Source of the DNA: Gluconacetobacter dulcium
Lineage (GTDB): Bacteria; Pseudomonadota; Alphaproteobacteria; Acetobacterales; Acetobacteraceae
Length of the DNA stretch: 54,078 nt
Assembly (NCBI RefSeq): GCF_014174165.1
Contig: NZ_JABEQN010000029.1
Coordinates: 1 to 54,078 of the forward strand
Reading direction: 5' to 3'
The position numbers and the translations under genes are program-made. Below, one piece after another: positions 6,323 to 45,372 of the stretch. Below the pieces are notes generated by a model that saw only the letters and a list, made by a program, of their open reading frames with translations, ran no database searches and was not told where the DNA came from. Numbering within the stretch: the stretch's first letter is position 1; each line of letters opens with the position of its first letter.

Positions 6323-6805
6323 ATGACCGATATGAAGCCGTTCTGGCAGGTCCGCCGGCTGGACGAAATGACGACCGAGGAATGGGAGTCGCTGTGCGAC
6401 GGGTGCGGACGCTGCTGCCTGCACAAGCTGCGCGAAGACGTGACCGAGCAGATCCTGTTTACCGATGTTGCCTGCCGGTTGCTGGATCTGGAAACCTGCC
6501 TGTGTTCGGACTATGCGTGCCGCCGGCGCAAGGTGCCCGATTGCGTGCAGTTGACCCCCGAGGCCATGGCGGAAATCGACTGGCTGCCGCCCTCATGCGC
6601 CTATCGGCTGGTGGCCGAGGGGCGGCCGCTGGCATGGTGGCATCCGCTGGTTTCAGGCTCGCCCGACACCGTGCATGAGGCCGGGGTTTCGGTGCGGGGG
6701 CGGGCGATCAGCGAGCGGCGGGCCGGGCAATTGGAGCATCACATTGTCGACTGGCCCGGCAAGATGCCCCGTCCGCGCCGGCCACGAGCGCGCGATCGGG
6801 CATGA
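6323..6805 (+). CDS. YcgN-family cysteine-cluster protein (UPF0260)
   Basis: A 160-residue soluble protein with the diagnostic early cluster [13 protein letters not shown] (about residues 28-40) and further cysteines in [19 protein letters not shown], as in the YcgN/UPF0260 family. The cysteines suggest metal or Fe-S binding, but no enzymatic role is established. FWQ near the N-terminus is also characteristic. Its stop overlaps the start of the following metallopeptidase gene (ATGA), so the two are probably co-translated. Confidence 0.9.
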
Positions 6806-7524
6806 CGGCCGGCCTTTCCGGGCTGAGGCCGACGGAGGCCGAGATTGTGCGGCTCGCAGGGCGGGATGTGCCGGTGCGCTGGCGCCGGTCGAGCCGGGCG
6901 CGGCGGTTGTCGTTGCGGATCGATGCGCGCGAGGCCGAAATCGTCATTACCCTGCCGCCGAGGGCGGAGCGCGAGGCCGGGATGGCGTTGCTGCGCAACC
7001 ATGCTGTCTGGGCGCTGTCGCGGCTGGATCACCTGCCGGCGGCGGCGCCGTGGCATGATGGGGGGCAGGTGGTGCTTGATGGGTGCGCGCATGGCATCGT
7101 CCATTGCCCCGATGGGCGGCGGGGAGTGTGGATCGAGGACGGGGTGGTGAAGGTGAGCGGTGAAGCGCCGTTCCTGCGCCGCCGGCTGGCGACGTTCCTG
7201 CGGCAGGAAGCCGGGCATCGGTTGGGGGAGCGGCTGACCGCGCTTACGGGATCGTCCGGCCTGCGGCCGCGGCGGCTGGTGATCAAGGATACCAGTAGCC
7301 GTTGGGGCAGTTGCAGTGCGAACGGCACGGTAATGCTGAACTGGCGGCTGGTGATGGCGCCCGTGGATGTGCAGCATTACGTGATTGCGCATGAACTGGC
7401 GCATCTGCGGCATATGAATCATGGCTCGGATTTCTGGGTGCTGGTGGCTGCCCTGACGCCGCATCGCCATATGGCGGAAACCTGGCTGCGCCGACACGGA
7501 CCGGCTCTGCTGCGCGCCGCTTAG
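6802..7524 (+). CDS. YgjP-like (DUF45/M48-type) zinc metallopeptidase
   Basis: A 240-residue protein with the zinc-site helix [16 protein letters not shown] (HExxH plus a downstream His) near residue 198 and the preceding [19 protein letters not shown] segment, both hallmarks of the YgjP/WLM-type domain. The N-terminal part ([20 protein letters not shown]) matches the family opening. It is likely cytosolic; the natural substrate of the family is not clear. Coupled to the YcgN-like gene upstream by a four-base overlap. Confidence 0.9.
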
Positions 7525-7587
7525 CCTGCGGAAAACGGCAACTGCCGGATTTCACTGGTCTCGCGAGTGTGCTAGAGGGCGCACCGG

Positions 7588-7673
7588 GCGAGCTTGGCGG
7601 AATGGTAGACGCACGAGACTTAAAATCTTGCGCCCGCAAGGGTGTGCGGGTTCGAGTCCCGCAGTTCGCACCA
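7588..7673 (+). tRNA. tRNA-Leu (anticodon UAA), CCA encoded
   Basis: The seven-base acceptor stem GCGAGCT pairs with AGTTCGC (one G-U), followed by ACCA. The anticodon stem CGAGA/TCTTG encloses the loop CTTAAAA, giving anticodon TAA. The long variable arm is typical of tRNA-Leu, and the T-arm GCGGGTTCGAGTCCCGC is intact. Its 3' end is the attachment site of a genomic island: 29 bases are repeated at 14149-14177. Confidence 0.95.
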
Positions 7674-7674
7674 C
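7646..7674 (+). repeat. Island attachment site, tRNA-side copy (att)
   Basis: This 29-base stretch covers the T-arm, acceptor 3' strand and CCA of tRNA-Leu. It recurs in direct orientation at 14149-14177 with one mismatch (C at 7667, T at 14170). Duplication of a tRNA 3' end is what tyrosine integrases leave at the two ends of an integrated island, and an integrase fragment starts 90 bases downstream. Confidence 0.85.
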
Positions 7675-7762
7675 AGGCACCTGAAATGGCACGATTTTTC
7701 GGCTGATAGGGGGGCAAAGGCTGTCTTTGCTCCATCGTCCTTCCCCGCCGAGGGAAGATTTT

Positions 7763-7932
7763 ATGCTCTGTGTCCGAGGCACCATTTACCATTTTCGCCG
7801 TATTGTTCCCCCTGCCTTGCGAGCAGCGTTAAACCGGCGGGAAATCTGGGTTTCCCTGAAAACCGGTTACCAGAACGAAGCCAGCAAACGGGCATCACTC
7901 ATTCATGCCAGAACCACAGAATTATTCTCTCA
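7763..7932 (+). pseudogene. Tyrosine integrase, N-terminal fragment (DUF6538-type), broken by a MITE
   Basis: From ATG 7763 (with AGGGAAG upstream) the frame reads MLCVRGTIYHFRRIVPPALR and then continues with an IWVSLKT-type motif, matching the N-terminal SAM-like/arm-binding region of phage and island integrases. After about 56 codons the frame enters the MITE at 7933 and stops at 7960. No catalytic domain (R...HxxR...Y) is found downstream, so the rest of the gene is gone. Its position just inside a tRNA attachment site is where an island integrase is expected. Confidence 0.75.
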
Positions 7933-8096
7933 GAGCCTGACCGAAAATGCGGTCTGGTGAGCGAGAGCGGCTCATCAGGGCCGCGTCCGGCGTGTGTTTC
8001 TGAGCATCGGAGCGGAGCGGCCTTGATGGCCGTGAGCACCGAAGCGCAGGAAACGCGCGGAGGACACGCCACCAGGGCGCATTTTCGGTCAGGCTC
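7933..8096 (+). mobile_element. MITE copy A (164 bp, IS5/IS1031-type ends)
   Basis: Terminal inverted repeats GAGCCTGACCGAAAATGCG (left) and the exact complement at the right end (8078-8096). Interior about 126 bp with no transposase. It shares most bases with the copy at 15207-15371 read on the opposite strand. Flanking triplets are TCA on the left and TTA on the right; both fit a TNA target but are not identical. It interrupts the integrase gene. Confidence 0.8.
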
Positions 8097-8183
8097 TTAT
8101 CCGCGAAGGTCTGCGTTTATGGCTGCTCTTTTTACCCTTCTTGACATCGTCAACTAATAGCTCTTTATGAAACCGGAAATGTA

Positions 8184-8636
8184 TTGGAGTTATCAATAGT
8201 CTTGACTACTCCCCAAACTCGACAGAAACACAATACACCACTCTTCGCAATTCTTGCGAGGGTGTTGGTTCTTGTCGGGTTTTTAGGACAACTTCTCCTT
8301 CAGGGTTTTTCCCTACCTGACGAAACGCCAAGGAGCGCAATTGAGCGGCTAACGGGCATTGATATCAGCCCGCAGCGCAACATGAGCCATGATATGGCGA
8401 TGATGGATATGCCTATGAGCATGTCAGGTCATCACCATAATACACATCATCACGACAAAAGCTGTCCGCTTTGCCCGTTGCTGGAACTTGTCGCTGTTAT
8501 TCTGACGAACCTCCCAGCACTGCCTGCTTATACTGTGTATCGATATCAACAGGAAATGCGGGCGCATCCTCCCAGAGCGCCGCCATCTGTTCTGACAGGT
8601 CTGCCACCGTCGCGCGGCCCCCCTTTACTTTCCTGA
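8184..8636 (+). CDS. DUF2946-like His/Met-rich metal-handling small protein
   Basis: About 150 residues: one N-terminal membrane segment (FAILARVLVLVGFLGQLLL, about residues 24-42), then a Met/His-rich stretch (MSHDMAMMDMPMSMSGHHHN, about 68-87) and the motif CPLC near residue 94, followed by another hydrophobic segment and a Pro-rich tail. Small DUF2946-type proteins with His clusters and a CPxC motif commonly sit next to copper-type TonB receptors. Met and His clusters favour Cu(I)/Cu(II) binding in the periplasm. The start is uncertain: TTG at 8184 is the earliest, TTG at 8202 is also possible. The next gene is a TonB receptor, 119 bases downstream. Confidence 0.65.
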   Translation: MELSIVLTTPQTRQKHNTPLFAILARVLVLVGFLGQLLLQGFSLPDETPRSAIERLTGIDISPQRNMSHDMAMMDMPMSMSGHHHNTHHHDKSCPLCPLLELVAVILTNLPALPAYTVYRYQQEMRAHPPRAPPSVLTGLPPSRGPPLLS

Positions 8637-8755
8637 GCCTTTCGTCAGCTTCTGGTGTGCGTCATCTCACCCTATACGCCGCTTTTCTGCGTGTTTGGGA
8701 GTGTTTCTGCACGACCCAGTGCTGAGTCTTTCTCAGTTCAGGATTTTCTTTAACT

Positions 8756-10945
8756 ATGTATGAAAAAACCCGTGGCGCTCAAGGAGCGTTAGCGCGTCGC
8801 GTTATCGCGCGCGTCGTCGTGCTGTCTTACGGTTTTACCGCTACACCTTTATGGGCGCAGAGCAGCACAGACAAAACATCATTTCCCCAGACTGGGATGT
8901 TGCCTCAGAAAGAGAAAAAGATAGAGGTCGCGTCCCAGTCACAAAGCTTTGTGATCGTTAATGGAACACGGCAGCCTGCCGAAAATTATCTTGCTCAGAC
9001 CAATAGTTCAGCTCTAAAAATTCCTGTTTCCATTCAGAAAACACCAGCATCGGTACAGGTCATCACTCATGCTGTCATACAGGATCGTGGCGCTCTCAGC
9101 ATTAATCAGGCCATCGAGACAGTCAGCGGTGTTGAACGTAATCTGACCTTCCCTAATTCTCTGACTTTTCGTGTGCGTGGATTTGTGGACGCTTCTACAA
9201 CCTTGCGAGATGGTTTTAGAGAACAGACCGGAACCCAAGATATTCAGGGCGTTGATAACATTGAAGTCCTCAAAGGTCCCGCATCGGTGTTATACGGTGG
9301 TTCAACCTCTTCAGGCGGTACCGTCAACGTCACGACAAAGCGAGCCATTGCAAACCATAACTTTCTGAATGCCGGATTATCAGGGGGAAGTTTTGGATTA
9401 TTCCGTGGAACCGCAGACGGTAACCGTGATCTATCAGGAGATGGAAAAATTGTTGGGCGTATCAATTTCGCCTATCAGCATGATGATACATTCCGAGACT
9501 TCGGTTACAACGAAGCAACCTATGTTGCACCCACTGTTCGGTGGACTCCGTCTCTTCATGATAAGATTGATTTCTTCGCGTCTTGGCAGCTTTCAAACTA
9601 TACTTGGGGTGCATCCCAAACCCCTTTGATCCGAAAAGCTCTGGCCCTACCCCTCTCCTATAACTTCGATAATCAGGCTCTTGGAGCCTCGCATCAGAAC
9701 TCCTGGCGTTTAGGATACAACTGGGTACATAAATTTTCTGATTCATTCCGATTTCGCTCAGGCTTTGCAAACTCAATCAACAACTATGATTTCGGTACGG
9801 ATCGTATGAGCACCTTTGCTCTCTCACCGAACGGACGAACCCTGAGCCGAGGAGTATCCAGCGGCCCTCAGATGGGTAAAGATTTTGATCTCCAGAATGA
9901 ATTTTCAGGTATTTTTCATACTGGTCCACTAAAACATGACTGGCTGGTCGGCAGCGAGCTCTATCAGACAGATTATAGTGCAAAAACCTATGGTGCCTCA
10001 CTTCCTGCACTTGTTCTTACAGATCCCATTTATACGGGGGCACTAGGACTTGCACGATTGCGCTCAAATATTTCAACACAGGCAGAAGCCGCCTCTGTGT
10101 ATTTTCAGGATTACATTTCTCTTTTTGATCGCTTCTATGTTCTTGGTGGGGGGCGCTATGATGCCACAACAACATCTTCTCTCAATAAAATAAAAGAAAT
10201 CAACACCTCTGTCTCTGACAATAAATTTTCTCCTAGGCTTGGCATTCTCTATGCCGCACGCAGAACAACGTCTCTTTATTTTAACTGGTCAACGAGTTTT
10301 ATTCCTACATCAACCTCTTCCTTCACTGGAACTCCCCTTTCACCCGGAAGGTCTCGCCAGATTGAAGCAGGCATCAAACAACAACTGTTTCATGAGCACG
10401 TTCAGGCGACAGTCGCGGTATATGATATTCGTCGCTCAAATGTTGCCACGACAGACCCTGCTCATCCACTTTATTCCATTGCTGTTGGCCAGCAGCGTAG
10501 TCGAGGAATAGAAGCTGATATAGCTGGTGAGATTTTATCGGGTTGGAAAGCCGTTCTCAGTTACGCGTACACTTTTGCCAATGTAACTCGTGACAACAAG
10601 TATCCCATCAATAGTGTTCTTGCTGGCGCTGCCAAACATACTGGAAACGTCTGGACAACATACGAATTTGCAGACAGAATAGTTTTGCATGGTCTAGGCT
10701 TGGGACTGGGTATTAGAGCCGCCACCCGACGGGAGGCAACACTTCCCAATTCGTTCTACCTTCCTGGCTATTTCCGGCTTGATTCTGCCTTATGGTATAA
10801 GTTTTCCTTACACGGACGACCCGTCAGGGCTCAGCTTAATATGACAAACCTGACCAATGCCCGAATTTATGACACGAATGGAACATTCTCCATGCGCGCG
10901 GAAGCTCCCCGTTCGGCTTTGGGTTCACTTCAGGTGACATTCTGA
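8756..10945 (+). CDS. TonB-dependent outer-membrane receptor (siderophore/metallophore type)
   Basis: 729 residues: an N-terminal Arg-rich signal sequence ending near WAQ (residues 1-34), plug domain at about 88-196 (KTPASVQVITHAVIQDRG; VLKGPASVLYGGSTSSGG) and a 22-strand-type barrel closing with the terminal Phe typical of outer-membrane proteins. There is no STN signalling domain, so it is a simple transporter rather than a transducer. It is AT-richer than the receptors at 16, 29 and 34 kb. Its stop overlaps the start of the DJ-1/PfpI gene (TGATG). No Fur-like box was seen upstream, and the His/Met-rich protein just before it suggests copper or a copper complex as cargo (inference). Confidence 0.9.
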   Translation: MYEKTRGAQGALARRVIARVVVLSYGFTATPLWAQSSTDKTSFPQTGMLPQKEKKIEVASQSQSFVIVNGTRQPAENYLAQTNSSALKIPVSIQKTPASVQVITHAVIQDRGALSINQAIETVSGVERNLTFPNSLTFRVRGFVDASTTLRDGFREQTGTQDIQGVDNIEVLKGPASVLYGGSTSSGGTVNVTTKRAIANHNFLNAGLSGGSFGLFRGTADGNRDLSGDGKIVGRINFAYQHDDTFRDFGYNEATYVAPTVRWTPSLHDKIDFFASWQLSNYTWGASQTPLIRKALALPLSYNFDNQALGASHQNSWRLGYNWVHKFSDSFRFRSGFANSINNYDFGTDRMSTFALSPNGRTLSRGVSSGPQMGKDFDLQNEFSGIFHTGPLKHDWLVGSELYQTDYSAKTYGASLPALVLTDPIYTGALGLARLRSNISTQAEAASVYFQDYISLFDRFYVLGGGRYDATTTSSLNKIKEINTSVSDNKFSPRLGILYAARRTTSLYFNWSTSFIPTSTSSFTGTPLSPGRSRQIEAGIKQQLFHEHVQATVAVYDIRRSNVATTDPAHPLYSIAVGQQRSRGIEADIAGEILSGWKAVLSYAYTFANVTRDNKYPINSVLAGAAKHTGNVWTTYEFADRIVLHGLGLGLGIRAATRREATLPNSFYLPGYFRLDSALWYKFSLHGRPVRAQLNMTNLTNARIYDTNGTFSMRAEAPRSALGSLQVTF

Positions 10946-11874
10946 TGACGAAACCCAACAGCTCTCTTGAGAGCGGCTCGTGCGTTGTTTTTGCTCAGAT
11001 CAAACCCTCTTATAAAGAAACAATCATGCCAAATTTACTGCCAGACGCTTCTTCTTTACCCGGTCTTAAACGACGTGCCCTTGCCACTCTTATCATGGCC
11101 TCCATAGTCTCAGAAAGTGCCAAGGCAGCAACGGGCAGTTCTGAAAAAGAGCATCTGGAGCATATGCAAGGTATGAAATTCTCTGGCCCCCCGATCAAAA
11201 TTGCCATGCTTGTTTACCCGAACATGGTTCTTCAGGATCTTGTCGGTCCGCAGACCATTTTTAAAATTCTAGGTGCCGAAATTCATCTGGTTGGCATGAC
11301 TATGACGCCGGTCTCCACCGATGTCGGTATTCCTGTCCCTCCAACAGACACACCAGCGACGTGCCCACAGGAACTGGATGTATTGTTTGTACCGGGCGGG
11401 CTAATGGGAACAATTGCCTGCATGAACGATCCCGACGTACTTGCTTTCTTGATAAGTCGTGCACCACACTCTCGCTTCATTACAAGCGTTTGCACAGGTA
11501 GCCTTATTCTTGCCGCAGCAGGGTTATTGGAGGGATACAAAGCGACATCCCATTGGGGTGTTGTTAATCTGCTGCCGTTAATGGGGGCTATTGAAAGCCA
11601 CGAACGCGTTGTGCAGGATCGCAATAGGATTACAGGAGGCGGTGTGACTGCTGGCCTTGATTTTGGGCTTACTCTCGCAGCGCAATTACGCGGGCAGGCC
11701 GCAGCAGAACATATTCAACTCATTATCCAGTATGCACCTCAGCCCCCGTTTCATCATGGCGACCCATCGGAAATTCCGGAAGCCCAAATGGCACTTGAAC
11801 GTAGCCGTAGAGCATGGATGGACGGGAAAGCATTGCAAGCAGCACAAACAGCCTCAAAACGATTAAAGCTATAA
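10945..11874 (+). CDS. DJ-1/PfpI-superfamily protein, isonitrile hydratase-like, probably exported
   Basis: The core (about residues 84-275) is a class-I glutamine-amidotransferase-like/DJ-1 fold: IKIAMLVYPNMVLQDLVGP, VLFVPGGLMG, and the nucleophile elbow SVCTGSLILAAAGLLEGYKA with Cys183, followed by TSHW. The SVCTGS...LL.G..ATSHW pattern is shared by cyclohexyl-isocyanide (isonitrile) hydratase InhA and related GATase1 proteins. Unusually, there is a long N-terminal extension containing LKRRALATLIMASIVSESAKA, which looks like a signal peptide. No AraC-type DNA-binding domain is present. Translationally coupled to the TonB receptor (TGATG); an alternative ATG lies at 11029. Activity on isonitriles is inference from the motif. 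Confidence 0.75.
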   Translation: MTKPNSSLESGSCVVFAQIKPSYKETIMPNLLPDASSLPGLKRRALATLIMASIVSESAKAATGSSEKEHLEHMQGMKFSGPPIKIAMLVYPNMVLQDLVGPQTIFKILGAEIHLVGMTMTPVSTDVGIPVPPTDTPATCPQELDVLFVPGGLMGTIACMNDPDVLAFLISRAPHSRFITSVCTGSLILAAAGLLEGYKATSHWGVVNLLPLMGAIESHERVVQDRNRITGGGVTAGLDFGLTLAAQLRGQAAAEHIQLIIQYAPQPPFHHGDPSEIPEAQMALERSRRAWMDGKALQAAQTASKRLKL

Positions 11875-11880
11875 TAAGAG

Positions 11881-11980
11881 GAGGTTCACGCGGGAGAGCA
11901 ATGCTCTCCCCCTGACCAGTTTGCAAACCATCGCGACACAACGTGTCCGCTGGTTTGCACGGCTGGCTATTCTCTTTTTT
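11881..11980 (+). repeat. Palindromic repeat unit, copy 1 (two stem-loops, T-run)
   Basis: Begins seven bases after the DJ-1/PfpI stop. Stem-loop 1 is GGGAGAGC/GCTCTCCC with loop AAT (11892-11910). Stem-loop 2 is a 51-base imperfect palindrome (11916-11966) with outer CCAG/CTGG, middle TGCAAACCA/TGGTTTGCA and inner GACAC/GTGTC around AAC. A T-run follows at 11975-11980. It is nearly identical to the unit at 13234-13340. It could serve as a terminator, but the 51-base palindrome differs at only one base between copies, more conservation than a terminator needs. Confidence 0.8.
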
Positions 11981-12203
11981 GAACGAGCCGCCCTCACGCC
12001 AGACATGGTCCCAGAGCTGACCCCGGTTTTTCGGACAGGGTGATAAGCTATCCCCGGCCTGGATAGGGACTGATGGGCAAGGTCAATGCTTCCCCCGTTG
12101 ACCCCCTTTATAGATTGATAAACTATATTTTGTCTTCCTTTTCCAACCAACGTAAGGTATTAAATATAATAGTTTATATAATCGCTATGGAATTACAAAT
12201 CAC
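11981..12203. other. Intergenic region before the DUF4268 gene
   Basis: The left half has a stretch resembling the end of an IS3-type element (CCCCGGTTTTTCGGACAGGG near 12021-12040), too short to name. The right half (12110-12203) is very AT-rich with several TATA-like boxes and probably carries the promoter of the DUF4268 gene. No coding frame supported. Confidence 0.4.
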
Positions 12204-13229
12204 ATGAGGTTAGGGCATATCGAAACCGTTGAGGTTCGTACAATTTGGCAAAATGAAGCAAGTCATTTTACTCCTTGGTTAGCTAAAGCTGAGAACCTCA
12301 TAGCTCTGGGGAAAGTTTTACACCTTGGCGAACTAAGATTAGAAGCGACAGAAGTTAGCGTTGGAGATTTTTCTGCGGACATTGTTGCCGTTGATGAAAA
12401 CGACACTCCAGTTCTAATTGAAAACCAACTGGAACTAACCGACCACCGTCATCTTGGTCAAGTAATAACATATCTTTCTGGAATTAATAATGATGAGGCA
12501 AATATCATCTGGATTTCAACCCGTTTTCGAGAAGAACATCGCGCTGCGATAGAATGGCTCAACAGAAATACTATTGATGGGTTTGATTTTTTTGGGATCG
12601 AAATTGAAGTTCTACGTATTGGCGAAAGTGATCCTGCCCCACGCTTCAATGTAGTAGCAATGCCAAACGACTGGGCTAAACAAGCACGTCAAACCGCACG
12701 CCGCATTTCATCAGAAGCAACAGGTAGCACAGGTCTCCTTTATCAAGAATTCTGGATATCGCTACAAGCAGCCTATGAAAAATTGGGAAATATCCGAAGA
12801 TTTCCTAAAACTTGGCCGCGACAGTGGCTCCCCTTCAGTATAGGTCGAGGCGGATTTAAGATTGTTGTGACTATAGCGCGTGCGACTAATGAGATACGAG
12901 TTGAGCTTTATATGCATCAAAAAAACATGCCTCCTAATCAAGCCTATAACGCCCTATATGCACAACGTGACAGTGTAGAAAGAGACTTCGGCACAACTTT
13001 GGATTGGCAACCTCTACCTGACCGCTGTGCCGCAAGAATTGCTGTATCTTTGCCTAATTCAAGTATTACCGACAAAGATAACTGGCCTCGCCAACAAGAG
13101 TGGATTTTGACAGAAATCACTAAGTTTAGAAAGGTTTTTACCGAACGCGTAAAGCAGATTGATCTCGATGAAAATATAGAAATACCAGAAAATGAGAGCG
13201 ATATAAATCTTACCTCAGAAAGCAACTAA
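12204..13229 (+). CDS. DUF4268 protein with PD-(D/E)XK-type nuclease-like N-terminus
   Basis: 341 residues. The N-terminal part has the nuclease-fold signature ADIVAVDENDTPVLIENQLE then TDHRHLGQVITYL (about residues 53-91): an Asp, then an E-x-Q variant of the E-x-K motif, as in this family and in restriction-like proteins. The C-terminal part (about 180-320; FWISLQAAYEKL..., LPFSIGRGGFKIVVTIA, RVELYMHQ...) matches the DUF4268 domain. Roles in DNA restriction or phage defence are suspected for such proteins but unproven. It is very AT-rich, a lone gene flanked on both sides by the same palindromic unit, which suggests it arrived as a discrete cassette. The acidic tail after residue 315 is low complexity. 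Confidence 0.8.
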   Translation: MRLGHIETVEVRTIWQNEASHFTPWLAKAENLIALGKVLHLGELRLEATEVSVGDFSADIVAVDENDTPVLIENQLELTDHRHLGQVITYLSGINNDEANIIWISTRFREEHRAAIEWLNRNTIDGFDFFGIEIEVLRIGESDPAPRFNVVAMPNDWAKQARQTARRISSEATGSTGLLYQEFWISLQAAYEKLGNIRRFPKTWPRQWLPFSIGRGGFKIVVTIARATNEIRVELYMHQKNMPPNQAYNALYAQRDSVERDFGTTLDWQPLPDRCAARIAVSLPNSSITDKDNWPRQQEWILTEITKFRKVFTERVKQIDLDENIEIPENESDINLTSESN

Positions 13230-13233
13230 AAAG

Positions 13234-13340
13234 AGGGGGTTCACGGGGGAGAGCTTTGTTCTTCCCCTGACCAGTTTGCAAACCATCGTGACACAACGTG
13301 TCCGCTGGTTTGCACGGCTGGCTTCCTGTTTTTCTTTTGT
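13234..13340 (+). repeat. Palindromic repeat unit, copy 2
   Basis: Starts just after the DUF4268 stop. Stem-loop 1 is GGGGGAGAGC/GTTCTTCCCC with loop TTT (13245-13267): the right arm differs from copy 1, but pairing is kept through G-U pairs. Stem-loop 2 (13271-13321) matches the 51-base palindrome of copy 1 except for one base. A T-rich stretch follows. Confidence 0.8.
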
Positions 13341-13371
13341 TTTTGAAAAATTATTGAAAAACTTACTTTTA

Positions 13372-13716
13372 TCACCCGACCAGCAATCTGATACGCTGCC
13401 GGATAGCCTCAAGCTCTTCTAGTAAAACTTTACCTTTGAGCTTTGCCTTTCTCACGCGCCAATCCAGACTTCTCACCTGATCTGACAAGGCCACACTGGC
13501 AGTTTTTCCAGTCAGAGCCACTTCAAAAGGATAGCCTTTAATCTTGGTCGTTGTCGGACAGCACAGCATCATTCCAGCTTTAGCGTTATAGCTGACAGGA
13601 CTCAGTACAACAGCAGGTCGGTGCCCAGCCTGCTCCCTGCCCGCCTGCGGATCAAACTCAAGCCAGACAATGTCCCCGCAATCAGGAACCCAGACAGTCG
13701 TTGCTTTGGCACTCAC
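13372..13716 (-). CDS. mazF: MazF/PemK-family mRNA interferase toxin
   Basis: 114 residues with the family core: PDCGDIVWLEFDPQAGREQA, GHRPAVVLSP and a CCPTTTKIKGYPFEV segment, the fold that cleaves mRNA at short sequence motifs. GTG start at 13716 overlaps the TGA of the antitoxin gene (GTGA), giving tight coupling. Located near the distal attachment repeat of the island, where a toxin-antitoxin pair can stabilise the integrated element. Confidence 0.93.
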   Translation of the reverse strand: MSAKATTVWVPDCGDIVWLEFDPQAGREQAGHRPAVVLSPVSYNAKAGMMLCCPTTTKIKGYPFEVALTGKTASVALSDQVRSLDWRVRKAKLKGKVLLEELEAIRQRIRLLVG

Positions 13717-13955
13717 CAGCTTTCACCACCAACAGATGGACCGAAATCGATTTCATCATGGCGATTCTTATTCGTAATACCAGACACTAACTCTTCCAAT
13801 TTGAGAGGAACTGCTCTGACTGGCTCGATGATAATCCTCCCATCTTCTTCTCGCACATCGACGGCCTGATCAATCTTCAGACTGACGGCTTCAAGCACAC
13901 CAGCAGGAAGACGAATGGCTGCACTGTTCCCCCATTTCCTGACAACGCCCTGCAT
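13713..13955 (-). CDS. mazE: MazE-family (AbrB-fold) antitoxin
   Basis: 80 residues: an N-terminal swapped-hairpin DNA-binding domain VRKWGNSAAIRLPAGVLEA (residues 4-22) and LKIDQAVDVREEDGRIIIEP, then a flexible acidic tail expected to wrap the toxin. ATG at 13955 has AAGGAAAA upstream and gives the canonical MazE start (MQGVVRKWGN). First gene of the pair; it should repress its own promoter through the palindrome at 13979-13991. Confidence 0.93.
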   Translation of the reverse strand: MQGVVRKWGNSAAIRLPAGVLEAVSLKIDQAVDVREEDGRIIIEPVRAVPLKLEELVSGITNKNRHDEIDFGPSVGGESW

Positions 13956-13978
13956 GATGATTTTCCTTACGTAAAGTT

Positions 13979-13991
13979 TATACGTCGTATA
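13979..13991. promoter_or_regulatory. Probable MazE operator
   Basis: TATACGTCGTATA is a perfect palindrome about a central T, 23 bases upstream of the mazE start, in an AT-rich promoter region. Autoregulation through such a site is normal for mazEF operons. Not tested here. Confidence 0.55.
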
Positions 13992-14148
13992 TACATCATA
14001 TTCCCACCAGAGGCCAGACAAATCCCTCTCTTGACTGCCCCACGGCTTTGCCCGCAGAGTGAACCCGCAGTCACTATGCGAAGGATGATTTCGTCTGAAA
14101 TTATCGTTCTGTTTCAATCAGTTGTTTGATTGGTTGCGACGAAAGCGA

Positions 14149-14177
14149 GCGGGTTCGAGTCCCGCAGTTTGCACCAC
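14149..14177 (+). repeat. Island attachment site, distal copy (att)
   Basis: A 29-base direct repeat of the tRNA-Leu T-arm/acceptor end at 7646-7674 with one mismatch. It is not part of a tRNA gene here: the upstream bases (GGTTGCGACGAAAGCGA) do not form the rest of a cloverleaf. It marks the end of the island; the fecR gene follows 26 bases on. Confidence 0.85.
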
Positions 14178-14203
14178 CAACCTATTGACGTAGCATGGGA
14201 TGC

Positions 14204-15169
14204 TTATTGTCTTCGTAGCAGCAAGATGCCCGCCGGTAGATGCGTCACCGTCATCCCGGCTGTCGCGGCAATGGCCGTGATGGCCGCGTCTGCCTGATCA
14301 GTACGAAATGCCCCGCTGATGGGCGGTGTTGCGGTGTCATCGGCCAGAACATAGACGCGGCCGCGTCGGTATCGTGCGACGGCCGCGACGGCCTCATGGA
14401 TTGGTGCGTTGTCCAGAATGAGATCGCCGTGCGCCCAGGCGGCGATCTCTTCGGGCGCGATACCATGTTCGACCGACGCGATCGTGCCGTCGGTGTAACT
14501 GGTGCGGTCTCCGGCCTTCAGCCTGACGGGGGCGGGAGCGTGGTGCGGCGCATGAACATCCACGATGCCCCGCGCGACCGTCACACGGACACTTGCCTCT
14601 TCCCGGCGGATCTCGAACGCCGTCCCCACATCCTCCGTCGTTCCATTGCGCGCCACCACCCGGAAAGGACGGTGCGGATCATGTTTCACTTCGAACAGCG
14701 CGTTGCCTTTCAGCAGCGTGATCGTGCGTTCCGTCGCGGTATAGCGCGTGGCAATGGCGGTATCGGCGTCGAGAATGGCGCGCGACCCATCGGCAAGGGT
14801 CAGCGTCTGCACCGTGGTTCCCGACCACTGATCGGCTCTGAGCCAGGTTGAGGCGACCGGGGCATACAGCACGAGAACAGACGCAACCATCGCGGCGCTG
14901 CCGAGGAACAGGCTCCGGCGTATGCTCCGGCGCACGCGATGCCTTTGACCCAGCCGTTGCCAGGTGCCGCGCGTGGTGCGGTCCTGTTCCGGTGTGAGGT
15001 GAAGCGCGCGCCACAACGCCCGTTCCCGCTCGAAGACCGCGTTGTTATCCGGTGATGCGGCCCGCCAGCGTCGGAACGCGCTCAGTTCCTCGGCCGTCAT
15101 GGCGCCGGACGCCATGCGGACAATCCAGTGGCGCGCCGTTTCCGCGATGTCGTGCGGTTGGTCTGTCAC
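14204..15169 (-). CDS. FecR-family anti-sigma/signal-transducing protein
   Basis: About 321 residues. N-terminal cytoplasmic anti-sigma part (ETARHWIVRMASG, FRRWRAASPDNN: the DUF4880-type start), a membrane segment near residues 88-108 preceded by twin arginines (IRRSLFLGS), then a periplasmic FecR domain (TLTLADGSRAILDADTAIA; LLKGNALFEVKHDPHRPFRV) and a C-terminal STN-like part. It should relay receptor occupancy to the sigma factor encoded upstream. GTG at 15169 is chosen because an open frame upstream of it runs into the MITE at 15207-15371 and is not family sequence. Confidence 0.9.
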   Translation of the reverse strand: MTDQPHDIAETARHWIVRMASGAMTAEELSAFRRWRAASPDNNAVFERERALWRALHLTPEQDRTTRGTWQRLGQRHRVRRSIRRSLFLGSAAMVASVLVLYAPVASTWLRADQWSGTTVQTLTLADGSRAILDADTAIATRYTATERTITLLKGNALFEVKHDPHRPFRVVARNGTTEDVGTAFEIRREEASVRVTVARGIVDVHAPHHAPAPVRLKAGDRTSYTDGTIASVEHGIAPEEIAAWAHGDLILDNAPIHEAVAAVARYRRGRVYVLADDTATPPISGAFRTDQADAAITAIAATAGMTVTHLPAGILLLRRQ

Positions 15170-15206
15170 GTAGTGCCCTTCGCCGTGTTTTCGCCCCTCT
15201 TCCTGA

Positions 15207-15371
15207 GAGCCTGACCGAAAATGCGCGCTGGCGGCGTGCCCCCCGCGCGTTTCCTGCGCTTCGGTGCTCATGGCCATCAAGGCCACTCCGCTCCGATGCT
15301 CGGAAACACATGTCGGGCGCGGTCCAATACGGGCCGCTCTTGCTCGCCAGCCCACATTCTCGGTCAGGCTC
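15207..15371 (-). mobile_element. MITE copy B (165 bp) between fecI and fecR, flanked by TGA repeats
   Basis: Left end GAGCCTGACCGAAAATGCG, right end complementary with a few changes. Flanked by TGA at 15204-15206 and TGA at 15372-15374, a clear 3-bp TNA target duplication as made by IS5/IS1031-type elements. No transposase. Read on the minus strand it matches copy A along its whole length. It separates the sigma gene from fecR; the frame of fecR stays open through it. Confidence 0.85.
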
Positions 15372-15424
15372 TGAGACGAACGGTCATCGCACGATTTAAC
15401 AGACGAACCATGATTCCGGGAAGG

Positions 15425-15928
15425 TCAGCCCGTTCGGGACGATGAAATGATATCCAGCGCGCGGCAGATATATCGGCTGACAAGGGCGATGGACCGGCCC
15501 ATGCGCGCGGCGATTTCCTTTTGGGGAACGCCATGGAAGCGGTTGAGCACGAAGGCGGTTTTCATCGGTTCCGGCAGGGCCGCGATGGCCTTTTCGATCT
15601 CTTCCAGCTCGTGCCGGGCGAATAGCGTGCGTTCCGGCGAGGGGGTGTCGTCCTCGATCCAGAGAAGATCGTGGATGTCGCTCTGGACTTCCTCGCGCCG
15701 CCTGGCCTGCCGGGCGTGGTCGATCGCGAGGTTGGAGGCGAGGCGATAGAGGAAGGCGCGCGGATTGACGATCTCCGCCGCATTCTCGATGCGCCGGATC
15801 TTTTCGAACAGTGACTGCACGGCGTCCTCGGCCGCTTCCGGGTTGCCGACGATCCGCTGGATGACGTTGAGCAGTTTATGCCGTTCCGCGGAAATCAGGT
15901 CCGTCAAAACCGCGATGTTGTCCTGCAT
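15425..15928 (-). CDS. FecI-like ECF sigma factor
   Basis: 167 residues with region 2 (LLNVIQRIVGNPEAAEDAVQ SLFEKI, then FLYRLASNLAIDHARQ) and region 4 (ALPEPMKTAFVLNRFHGVPQ followed by KEIAARMGRS). Typical of iron-starvation sigma factors that act with a FecR protein. ATG at 15928 is preferred because a Fur-like box at 15971-15990 would otherwise fall inside the gene. It pairs with the fecR gene downstream and probably drives the FecA-like receptor at 16155, which is divergent. Confidence 0.92.
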   Translation of the reverse strand: MQDNIAVLTDLISAERHKLLNVIQRIVGNPEAAEDAVQSLFEKIRRIENAAEIVNPRAFLYRLASNLAIDHARQARRREEVQSDIHDLLWIEDDTPSPERTLFARHELEEIEKAIAALPEPMKTAFVLNRFHGVPQKEIAARMGRSIALVSRYICRALDIISSSRTG

Positions 15929-18629: not shown

Positions 18630-18700
18630 GGAACGAAGGCCCATTGGAGCGATTTTCCAGTGCGGCCCGCATACCGGCTTGCCCTGGAAGATTTCTGTGA

Positions 18701-18742
18701 GAGCCTGACCTAAAATGCGCTCTGGTGGCGTGTCCTTCGCGC
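18701..18742 (+). mobile_element. MITE copy C, one end only
   Basis: GAGCCTGACC-T-AAAATGCG and the next 22 bases match the right arm of copy A read in reverse; similarity stops near 18742. TGA precedes the end, as for copy B. The other end is missing, so this is a truncated copy. Confidence 0.65.
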
Positions 18743-22088: not shown

Positions 22089-22112
22089 TCGGTCGGGCGG
22101 GTCGGGGGTGTC

Positions 22113-22234
22113 TCTTCTTTTTCTGAAGAAAAAGAAGCAAAAAGACTTTTAATCGTTCAGGGCCATCGCGTGTTCCCAGCACAAAATTCCTGAACGAATC
22201 AAAGTTTTTTGGTTCTTTTTTTCAAAAAAGAACG
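22113..22234. repeat. Dispersed AT-hairpin intergenic repeat, copy 1
   Basis: Starts with hairpin CTTCTTTTTCTGAAGAAAAAGAAG-like sequence (stem CTTCTTTTTC/GAAAAAGAAG, loop TGAA) and ends with GTTCTTTTTT/AAAAAAGAAC; an inner CGTTCAGG/CCTGAACG pair lies between. Nearly the same element is at 45239-45359, and a partial copy at 39652-39685. It follows dedA and can terminate transcription from either side. Confidence 0.75.
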
Positions 22235-22316
22235 AAGACGGTCACGGTTGCGCACCGCGTTTCCATGATTGCAATTTATTTTGAACTATTCAGTTATATT
22301 CGTCTCTTTTGTCAAT

Positions 22317-39560: not shown

Positions 39561-39651
39561 GTGCCGCTGCACTATGCGGATATCCGCCACAGTAGGATGG
39601 CGAGTGCGAAGCGTCTATTCGATGAGCTGATAGTGCCCCGGAAGGATTAAG

Positions 39652-39685
39652 AGTCTTTTTGCTTCTTTTTCTTCAGAAAAAGAAG
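39652..39685. repeat. Dispersed AT-hairpin repeat, partial copy
   Basis: The sequence is the reverse complement of the first hairpin of the elements at 22113 and 45239 (stem CTTCTTTTTC/GAAAAAGAAG). It sits between convergent DUF2335 and serB genes and can act as a two-way terminator. Confidence 0.65.
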
Positions 39686-45203: not shown

Positions 45204-45233
45204 GGCCGGGCGGGCGATTGTGCCCGCCCGGCC
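45204..45233 (+). terminator. ilvC terminator hairpin
   Basis: A perfect 12-bp stem GGCCGGGCGGGC/GCCCGCCCGGCC with loop GATTGT, 11 bases after the ilvC stop. Confidence 0.75.
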
Positions 45234-45238
45234 GTGTG

Positions 45239-45359
45239 TCTTCTTTTTCTGAAGAAAAAGAAGCAAAAAGACTTCTGTCTGTTTGGGGCCATCGCGTGCC
45301 CCAGCACAAGACTCCTGAACGAATCAAAGTTTTTTGGTTCTTTTTTTCAAAAAAGAACG
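45239..45359. repeat. Dispersed AT-hairpin intergenic repeat, copy 2
   Basis: Same order as the element at 22113-22234: CTTCTTTTTC hairpin, GCAAAAAGACTT, a GGGGCCATCGCGTGCCCC core, CCTGAACGAATCAAAG, then the GTTCTTTTTT/AAAAAAGAAC hairpin. The outer parts are almost identical; the core varies. It separates ilvC from the convergent AraC gene. Confidence 0.75.
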
Positions 45360-45372
45360 GAAACTCTGGCAT

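Follow-up and report, generated by a model that had tools for sequence, protein, structure and literature searches.

Mobilizable genomic islands (MGIs; MGIVflInd1, SGI1-type islands, 'iOriT') are described as encoding their own tyrosine integrase and no relaxase while carrying an origin of transfer (oriT) recognized by the relaxase of a helper (PMC5704250, PMC11389934). According to the cited accounts, Staphylococcus plasmids mobilized by pWBG749-type helpers carry two or three oriTs, mostly of a different inverted-repeat subtype, and relaxase-mediated recombination takes place between the oriTs of such oriT-mimic plasmids (PMC4652767, PMC8136818). The oriT of the ColE1 superfamily (MOB-HEN) is reported to consist of an inverted repeat near CTGGCT, the core of the ColE1 nick motif, upstream of mobC (PMC5703827). 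Finally, cis-mobilizable elements (CIMEs) and accreted islands at tRNA genes are portrayed as remnants flanked by attachment (att) sites, without a working integrase, in or derived from tandem arrays (PMC5704250). Here we compare with these systems a 6.5-kb island next to a tRNA-Leu(UAA) gene in a 54,078-nucleotide contig of Gluconacetobacter dulcium (NZ_JABEQN010000029.1, positions 1 to 54,078; hereafter, the window). We consider it likely that two tandem members of one family of small, integrative and mobilizable elements, which encode an integrase but lack a relaxase, have fused and decayed to give this island. Since members of this family have no transfer genes of their own but carry short oriT sites, they probably move by hitch-hiking on the transfer machinery of other elements. 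No description of this island family was found in the open PMC papers searched.

Positions 7646-14177 are an integrated tRNA-Leu island. A 29-bp direct repeat with one mismatch, comprising the 3' end of tRNA-Leu(UAA) (7646-7674) and a copy at 14149-14177, brackets the block exactly where a first-pass annotation made from the sequence alone had located it, and no other place within 8 mismatches was found on either strand of the window. The AT-richness reported in that annotation is also evident (GC of about 0.69 before the block, 0.43-0.52 inside, and 0.62-0.65 just past it). In the sister genome G006 (G and L numbers denote genomes and sequence stretches, respectively), which is 94-96% identical, one alignment covers window positions 6500-7674 and continues in a second at 14145-15208; the 33-bp overlap of the two contains the sole att copy, and the fecR region follows directly. 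Because the G006 flanks meet at a single att copy, the stretch between the two copies in the window is an insertion, and both the proposed island ends and the predicted island-free relative with the tRNA directly before fecR were thereby recovered. Among the 13 other genomes of the genus that were compared, only G006 has the downstream flank directly after the tRNA; the G003 contig stops about 3.4 kb past the tRNA. ARAGORN called no second tRNA in the window.

On sequence grounds, the island is a member of a family that occurs at tRNA-Leu(UAA) in Acetobacteraceae and on plasmids of Acetobacter and Zymomonas. The family layout comprises a DUF6538 tyrosine integrase (int), variable and often defense-related cargo, often a toxin-antitoxin (TA) pair, and a conserved right end, and mapped relatives are att-int-cargo-(TA)-right end-att units that often form tandem stacks. 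Positions 14022-14177 matched 75 of 397 genomes of the taxonomic family, mostly over the short tRNA part only, whereas long right-end matches (at least 129 of 156 bases) were identified in 13 genomes besides that of the window, two of them at 73% identity. The right end was also identified in 17 plasmid records (9 Acetobacter and 8 Zymomonas), in 16 of which it matched over more than 80% of the query, and in both genomes and plasmids an att copy mostly lies alongside. In the same genus and at the same tRNA, G007 harbors a 2.8-kb element that shares this right end and contains a frameshifted integrase, one copy of the repeat R described below, and an HNH gene. Integrases of relatives are encoded by open reading frames (ORFs) of about 460-480 aa, and a full-length relative has DUF6538 and Phage_integrase domains; in the window, the island starts, as had been proposed, with a truncated integrase, of which a 77-aa N-terminal DUF6538 fragment remains. 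A set of 21 delimited elements, related to each other such that counts do not represent independent events, ranges in size from 2.3 to 11.5 kb. In L116/L117 (G296) and L109 (G338), several integrases and relaxase-bearing elements are also arranged in long tandem arrays at att sites of the tRNA-Leu(UAA) type.

Three features go beyond the first-pass annotation: an element within the integrase that resembles a miniature inverted-repeat transposable element (MITE), two 93-bp structured repeats (R1 and R2), and, between R1 and R2, what appears to be left of a second element. The repeat, R, measures about 93 bp (93-97 bp), forms two hairpins, and is conserved in sequence up to a terminal CTGGCT. 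Among 32 distinct copies (distinct over R plus 60 bp on each side, from 40 matches), two-sided changes were observed in 5 of 35 pairs in an alignment of R alone that was not fitted to a covariance model; four of five covariation measures were reached by 0 of 500 shuffles and the fifth (further pair types) by 30 of 500. In a 77-hit alignment that was fitted to the covariance model, two-sided changes were present in 27 of 35 pairs and in 361 cells, compared with a shuffle mean of 118 and a slid maximum of 35. R was identified in 11 of the 397 genomes (in one as a 28-bp piece only), in 13 plasmid records, and in 22 stretches of the genome collection, all from Acetobacter, Bombella, Komagataeibacter, or Gluconacetobacter (L138 having the last 28 bases only); when plasmids were searched with the core of R at E 10, only the same 13 records were returned. 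In one copy (L059:8967-9060, Zymomonas pZM32), about 20 bp at the center of the 3' hairpin is inverted relative to the 31 other aligned copies, which gives the impression of a flipped hairpin.

A second class of the element, R', was found with the covariance model of R and adjoins most int genes. Among 83 examined matches, which were hand-picked from model searches, 28 lie on the strand opposite to int and no more than 400 bp downstream of its end; in 22 of these, the distance to the stop codon is 5 bp. Excluded from this set are the weakest matches (L118, L032, and window 53023), duplicates (L131 and a second copy at L107:276), and reverse-strand echoes of R; one place is counted twice (L071:19745 = L107:2745). 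The model matched 47 of the 397 genomes at E 0.01, many of them weakly. No Rfam family fits R: window positions 7000-15500 yielded the tRNA only, and two sub-threshold matches at four other loci both lie away from R'.

CTGGCT forms the end of 70 of 77 aligned copies across both classes, and we take the nick in this motif to fall, as in ColE1, at CTGG/CT. Divergent homologs of mobC and/or relaxase genes were identified 5' of the R-like element in 21 of 29 matches checked, which were chosen mainly for having no int neighbor in the 83-match survey, and mobC adjoins 19 of the 29. Because related elements adjoin divergent mobC and relaxase genes, R and R' are most likely origins of transfer. The 93-bp class has mobC-relaxase neighbors of its own in L126, L128, and L074 (mobC by Pfam), with relaxase matches nearby in L117 and L135, and Pfam matched MobC in 3 of 5 candidates from a first set and in 3 of 3 from the 93-bp-subtype set. 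The 93-bp-subtype relaxases were assigned by homology to other relaxases and by fold since Pfam gave no match: the AlphaFold model of the L128 relaxase aligns best with the relaxase domains of MobM, MobA, and TraI/TrwC. A PDB sequence search with the 93-bp-subtype relaxase returned chance matches only; of ten proteins scanned with NCBIfam, one matched two mobilization names below the cutoff and nine had no match. Best identities over the nick-side 53 nt ranged from 0.74 to 0.98 over 26 compared copies; R1 is 98% identical to L135, with its nearby relaxase match, and R2 is 96% identical to L143, where no relaxase match is known.

Profile scans detected no relaxase among ten window proteins, and tblastn detected no relaxase homolog inside the 21 delimited intervals. 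The relaxase family is present in 2 of 14 genomes of the genus, and relaxase-bearing elements are located at the same tRNA-Leu locus in G296, G372, G395, and G011, which suggests that helpers and satellites share this locus. In one relaxase-bearing element, a small leftward ORF pair identified by eye (L128:2283-3004) resembles a nucleotidyltransferase/HEPN toxin-antitoxin system and lies between oriT and att, the place occupied by mazEF in satellites.

Among the 21 elements, 18 have an inverted left oriT, 15 have a right oriT on the int strand, and 13 have both, always on opposite strands; 9 of these 13 combine a right 93-bp subtype with a left short subtype, and in 4 both are short. The window is the only one of the 21 with two R copies in one interval, and its two remaining oriTs share a strand, which is the case in no other element of the set. 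A study of staphylococcal plasmids with two oriT mimics likewise reports no same-strand pairs, and its authors suspect relaxase-mediated deletion (PMC4652767).

What lies between R1 and R2 bears on how this arrangement arose. A 42-bp fragment of a second right-end type (RE2), a dispersed repeat of about 70 bp, and an 18-nt oriT stub on the opposite strand occupy this interval, and the stub is followed by the DUF4268 gene, R2, mazEF, the right end, and att. Of 48 aligned rows shorter than 88 nt, 5 contain the exact 18-mer and 32 its 15-nt core. No transposase was recognized by eye beside dispersed-repeat copies at three places inspected, and the repeat is therefore not called an insertion sequence (IS). 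Upstream, no further int sequence and no left oriT are present beyond the MITE-like element; because homology to G338 resumes (8095) directly past this element within int, both appear to have been lost from the first unit. From 8095 to 11967 the G338 alignment is 93.65% identical at the nucleotide level and stops at the 3' end of R. There, in the Acetobacter group, the DUF2946-TonB-DJ-1 block recurs at 94% identity beside the C-terminal part of an integrase, and sequence comparison thus indicates that the metal block is cargo of another family member too.

The single att pair and two R copies 1355 bp apart could also be accounted for if the whole of 7646-14177 had entered as one element with two cargo modules and a duplicated repeat, without tandem fusion. 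However, no other element in the set has two same-strand oriTs, and a right-end fragment, a dispersed-repeat scar, and an opposite-strand oriT stub lie between the R copies, and we regard entry as a single element as unlikely.

Under the composite origin that we prefer, intact family members would use the DUF6538 integrase to recombine into the 3' end of tRNA-Leu(UAA). Most members have a left oriT that lies opposite to the int strand and 5 bp past the stop codon of int, and many have a second, usually different, right oriT on the int strand; cargo, often anti-phage, lies beside oriT in the place that mobC and the relaxase take in relaxase-bearing relatives. Those relatives would supply MobC and relaxase in trans, nicking would occur at the CTGGCT end, and a conjugation machine of the cell would move the nicked strand. 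In the window, the MITE insertion would mark where unit 1 lost its left oriT and most of int, and a deletion leaving the dispersed-repeat scar would have joined the right end of unit 1 to the cargo of unit 2. Such a fusion would leave two oriTs on the same strand, with the RE2 fragment as a remnant of the end of unit 1 and the 18-nt stub as a remnant of the left oriT of unit 2. The insertion, family, homology, structure, and arrangement were observed; from these we infer nicking, transfer, and the order of events.

These findings modify two claims of the first-pass annotation. The cargo genes and mazEF had been named correctly, but their odd mixture is better read as the product of two tandem elements fused by deletion than as an unusual combination in one island. 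Loss of mobility holds for self-encoded excision, as the integrase is truncated, but the island keeps both of its att copies and two oriT-like sites of full length, and it may be mobilized with outside help.

Comparison of the sequences flanking R indicates that R is a joint between modules. Among 496 pairs of the 32 distinct copies, 60 share a flank, and 50 of these share it on one side only; the 10 pairs sharing both flanks are all from one clade. At control points, for which a 300-bp flank was required as compared to 60 bp for R, both sides are shared by 36 of 36 (mazF), 225 of 250 (int), and 253 of 276 (left end) flank-sharing pairs. Since pairs sharing a flank of R mostly match on one side only, unlike the controls, the pattern indicates that modules have been swapped at R. 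The mean identity of the 5' half of R is 0.920 in left-only pairs (15), 0.851 in right-only pairs (35), 0.827 in pairs sharing neither (436), and 0.924 in pairs sharing both (10), with 3'-half values of 0.967, 0.954, 0.919, and 0.943, respectively. This fits crossovers towards the nick-side half of R, although the pairs are not independent and plain homologous recombination could produce the same pattern. As a tentative but plausible extension, the elements might be dual-helper satellites with an oriT on each strand, the two differing in relaxase specificity and occupying the positions at which relaxase-bearing relatives have an oriT next to mobC and relaxase. Either helper family could then mobilize the satellites, and relaxase-catalyzed joining at the nick would swap defense cargo between islands.

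Alternatively, R and R' could be transcription terminators or insulators bracketing cargo, with shuffling due to ordinary homologous recombination in a non-coding repeat. They are hairpin-rich and intergenic and lie close past stop codons (int, DJ-1, and DUF4268), R lies between two convergent genes in G007, and in both window copies a simple scan detected, at the 3' end, a site that resembles a terminator and has a loosely T-rich tail. We nevertheless consider this improbable: the orientation of R tracks the element and not the genes (in pZM32, R is on the 5' side of leftward SIR2/TIR genes), the position 5' of mobC and/or relaxase genes is that of an oriT and not of a terminator of those genes, and the conservation of R extends to its CTGGCT end.

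No packaging signal or helper-phage interference gene was recognized in the island, but the sampling of phages that infect acetic acid bacteria is probably poor. It is highly improbable that the elements are phage satellites with R as a packaging (cos/pac) site since, despite an outline similar to that given for phage-inducible chromosomal minimalist islands (PICMIs; small integrase-bearing islands with defense cargo; PMC10803314), the island including R has no match in 50,697 phage records at E 1e-5, two viral contigs that share an 18-mer of R contain no R, and R-like copies adjoin mobC-relaxase genes. Two other candidates were set aside. An integron-like attC site, considered because modules join at a hairpin repeat, was dropped because R-like copies adjoin mobC-relaxase genes; the integrase scanned (the full-length relative) has DUF6538 and Phage_integrase domains and was considered alongside integron cassette arrays. 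A short string shared by R and the att core was judged by eye to be due to chance, and R was not retained as a mimic of that core.

Several observations weigh against a composite of relaxase-dependent elements. The oriT stub is short (18 nt), 5 of the 21 elements have a left oriT only, pZM32 has a right one only, and G325 has none. Eight of the 29 checked R-like matches have no mob gene nearby, and 2 of 5 proteins in the mobC position match no Pfam family. The Pfam Relaxase model matches 4 of 5 scanned relaxases, only near its cutoff and above it for one, and fails to match the fifth, while Pfam does not match any of the three relaxases of the 93-bp subtype. The Foldseek match is weak when taken alone (best E 8.6e-3), and the L128 model is of intermediate confidence, with a mean predicted local distance difference test score (pLDDT) of 73 and a predicted template modeling score (pTM) of 0.40. 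The query that detects this relaxase family in G011 and G008 found no member in the genome of the window. Lastly, nicking, transfer, and the identity of the helper are deduced from sequence.

Features of the island are compiled in Table 1. The DUF2946 protein is 89% identical at the amino acid level in L068/G338, and the TonB receptor and the DJ-1/PfpI protein are each 94% identical in L068. The DUF4268 protein matches the PADLOC model PDC-S11 (367 bits, E 2e-110, residues 2-318 of 341) and is a candidate defense protein with a putative anti-phage role. MazE scores below the NCBIfam MazE cutoff (69.4 versus 113).

Table 1. Positions of the island features in the window, with supporting evidence.
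Feature	Position	Strand	Evidence
tRNA-Leu(UAA), integration target, intact	7588..7673	+	ARAGORN; Rfam tRNA 58 bits
attL core, 29 bp	7646..7674	+	single copy in G006 empty site
DUF6538 tyrosine integrase, N-terminal remnant, 77 aa	7727..7960	+	PF20172 54.9 bits
MITE-like element, 166 bp, inside integrase	7932..8097	+	62 blastn rows in own genome, including some short or reverse-strand echoes
DUF2946 protein, first-unit cargo	8184..8636	+	PF11162 29.9 bits (cutoff 23.7)
TonB-dependent siderophore receptor, first-unit cargo	8756..10945	+	TIGR01783 250.4 bits (cutoff 223.5)
DJ-1/PfpI protein, first-unit cargo	10945..11874	+	PF01965 77.8 bits
R1, oriT-like two-hairpin element ending CTGGCT	11876..11968	+	covariance model 110.1 bits (copy belongs to the alignment behind the model)
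RE2 (second right-end type) fragment	11969..12010	+	aligns with sequence following R in six other elements
Dispersed-repeat piece, IS-end-like, at supposed fusion point	12011..12083		matches in 5 of 14 genus genomes including own
18-nt stub matching 5' part of left-type oriT (R')	12089..12106	-	once in window
DUF4268 protein, second-unit cargo	12204..13229	+	PF14088 87.6 bits
R2, second oriT-like element	13231..13323	+	covariance model 111.3 bits (copy belongs to the alignment behind the model)
MazF toxin	13372..13716	-	NF007386 176.9 bits (cutoff 120)
MazE antitoxin	13713..13955	-	PF04014 48.4 bits (cutoff 24.7)
Conserved right end (RE), adjoins attR	14022..14148	+	same right end in relatives
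attR, 29 bp	14149..14177	+	one mismatch to attL

Elements of the MITE-like type, with AGAGCCTGACC termini, also occur in the window at 15206-15372 and, as a partial copy, at 18693-18742; the copy at 15206-15372 is absent from G006, where its flanks meet with a 6-nt overlap. T-rich hairpin repeats of a CTTCTTTTTCTGAAGAAAAAGAAG family, perhaps terminators, were observed at 22103-22239, 39634-39685, and 45229-45364.

Defense functions are frequent among the cargo of family members. PADLOC models matched 16 of 30 proteins scanned, several of them weakly, and 14 had no match. Strong cases comprise Thoeris ThsA and ThsB (Zymomonas pZM32), PD-Lambda-5 and a GmrSD-type protein (both G338), an Hhe/PDC-S37 protein (G145), an OLD/AriA-like ATPase (G325), and a type III methyltransferase next to a weaker type III nuclease match (G319). 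A cyclase of the cyclic oligonucleotide-based anti-phage signaling system (CBASS) is annotated in an A. pasteurianus plasmid element, and other members carry an acyltransferase or glycosyltransferase. If the proposed mechanism is correct, it would explain the spread of small defense islands without visible transfer genes among Acetobacter, Komagataeibacter, Gluconacetobacter, Bombella, and Zymomonas, and recombination at oriT would provide a concrete mechanism for reshuffling anti-phage systems. Were the dual-helper arrangement also to hold, oriT would be the cassette joint of a mobile defense repertoire in acetic acid bacteria. An unexplained repeat becomes a testable relaxase substrate, and the oriT covariance model offers a search handle for more such islands.

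When compared to the systems described at the outset, the family resembles relaxase-less MGIs, as these are portrayed in the cited accounts, in combining an integrase, no relaxase, an oriT, restriction-modification and toxin-antitoxin cargo, and tandem accretion. An att pair, an empty site, and full-length integrases are present, the latter in relatives since that of the window is truncated, and the family encodes no relaxase but has the putative oriTs R and R', which are homologous in sequence and structure to elements beside mobC-relaxase genes. Unlike MGIs, the elements are much smaller (2.3-11.5 kb), often have two oriTs, with one located opposite to the int strand and 5 bp past the stop codon of int, and share their tRNA locus with relaxase-bearing elements that have related oriTs. 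As with the Staphylococcus oriT-mimic plasmids, insofar as those sources describe them, relaxase-less carriers have several, mostly different, oriTs; in contrast to those plasmids, the elements are integrative and alphaproteobacterial, with a ColE1-like nick motif and MobC. CTGGCT beside an inverted repeat with mobC adjacent is found here as in the ColE1 (MOB-HEN) oriT, whereas an extra GC-rich 5' hairpin and relaxases far from the Pfam model set the family apart. Finally, the window island is att-flanked, without a working integrase, and beside a tRNA gene, as CIMEs are in the account cited, but unlike them it keeps two oriT-like sites and looks to have been fused from two units.

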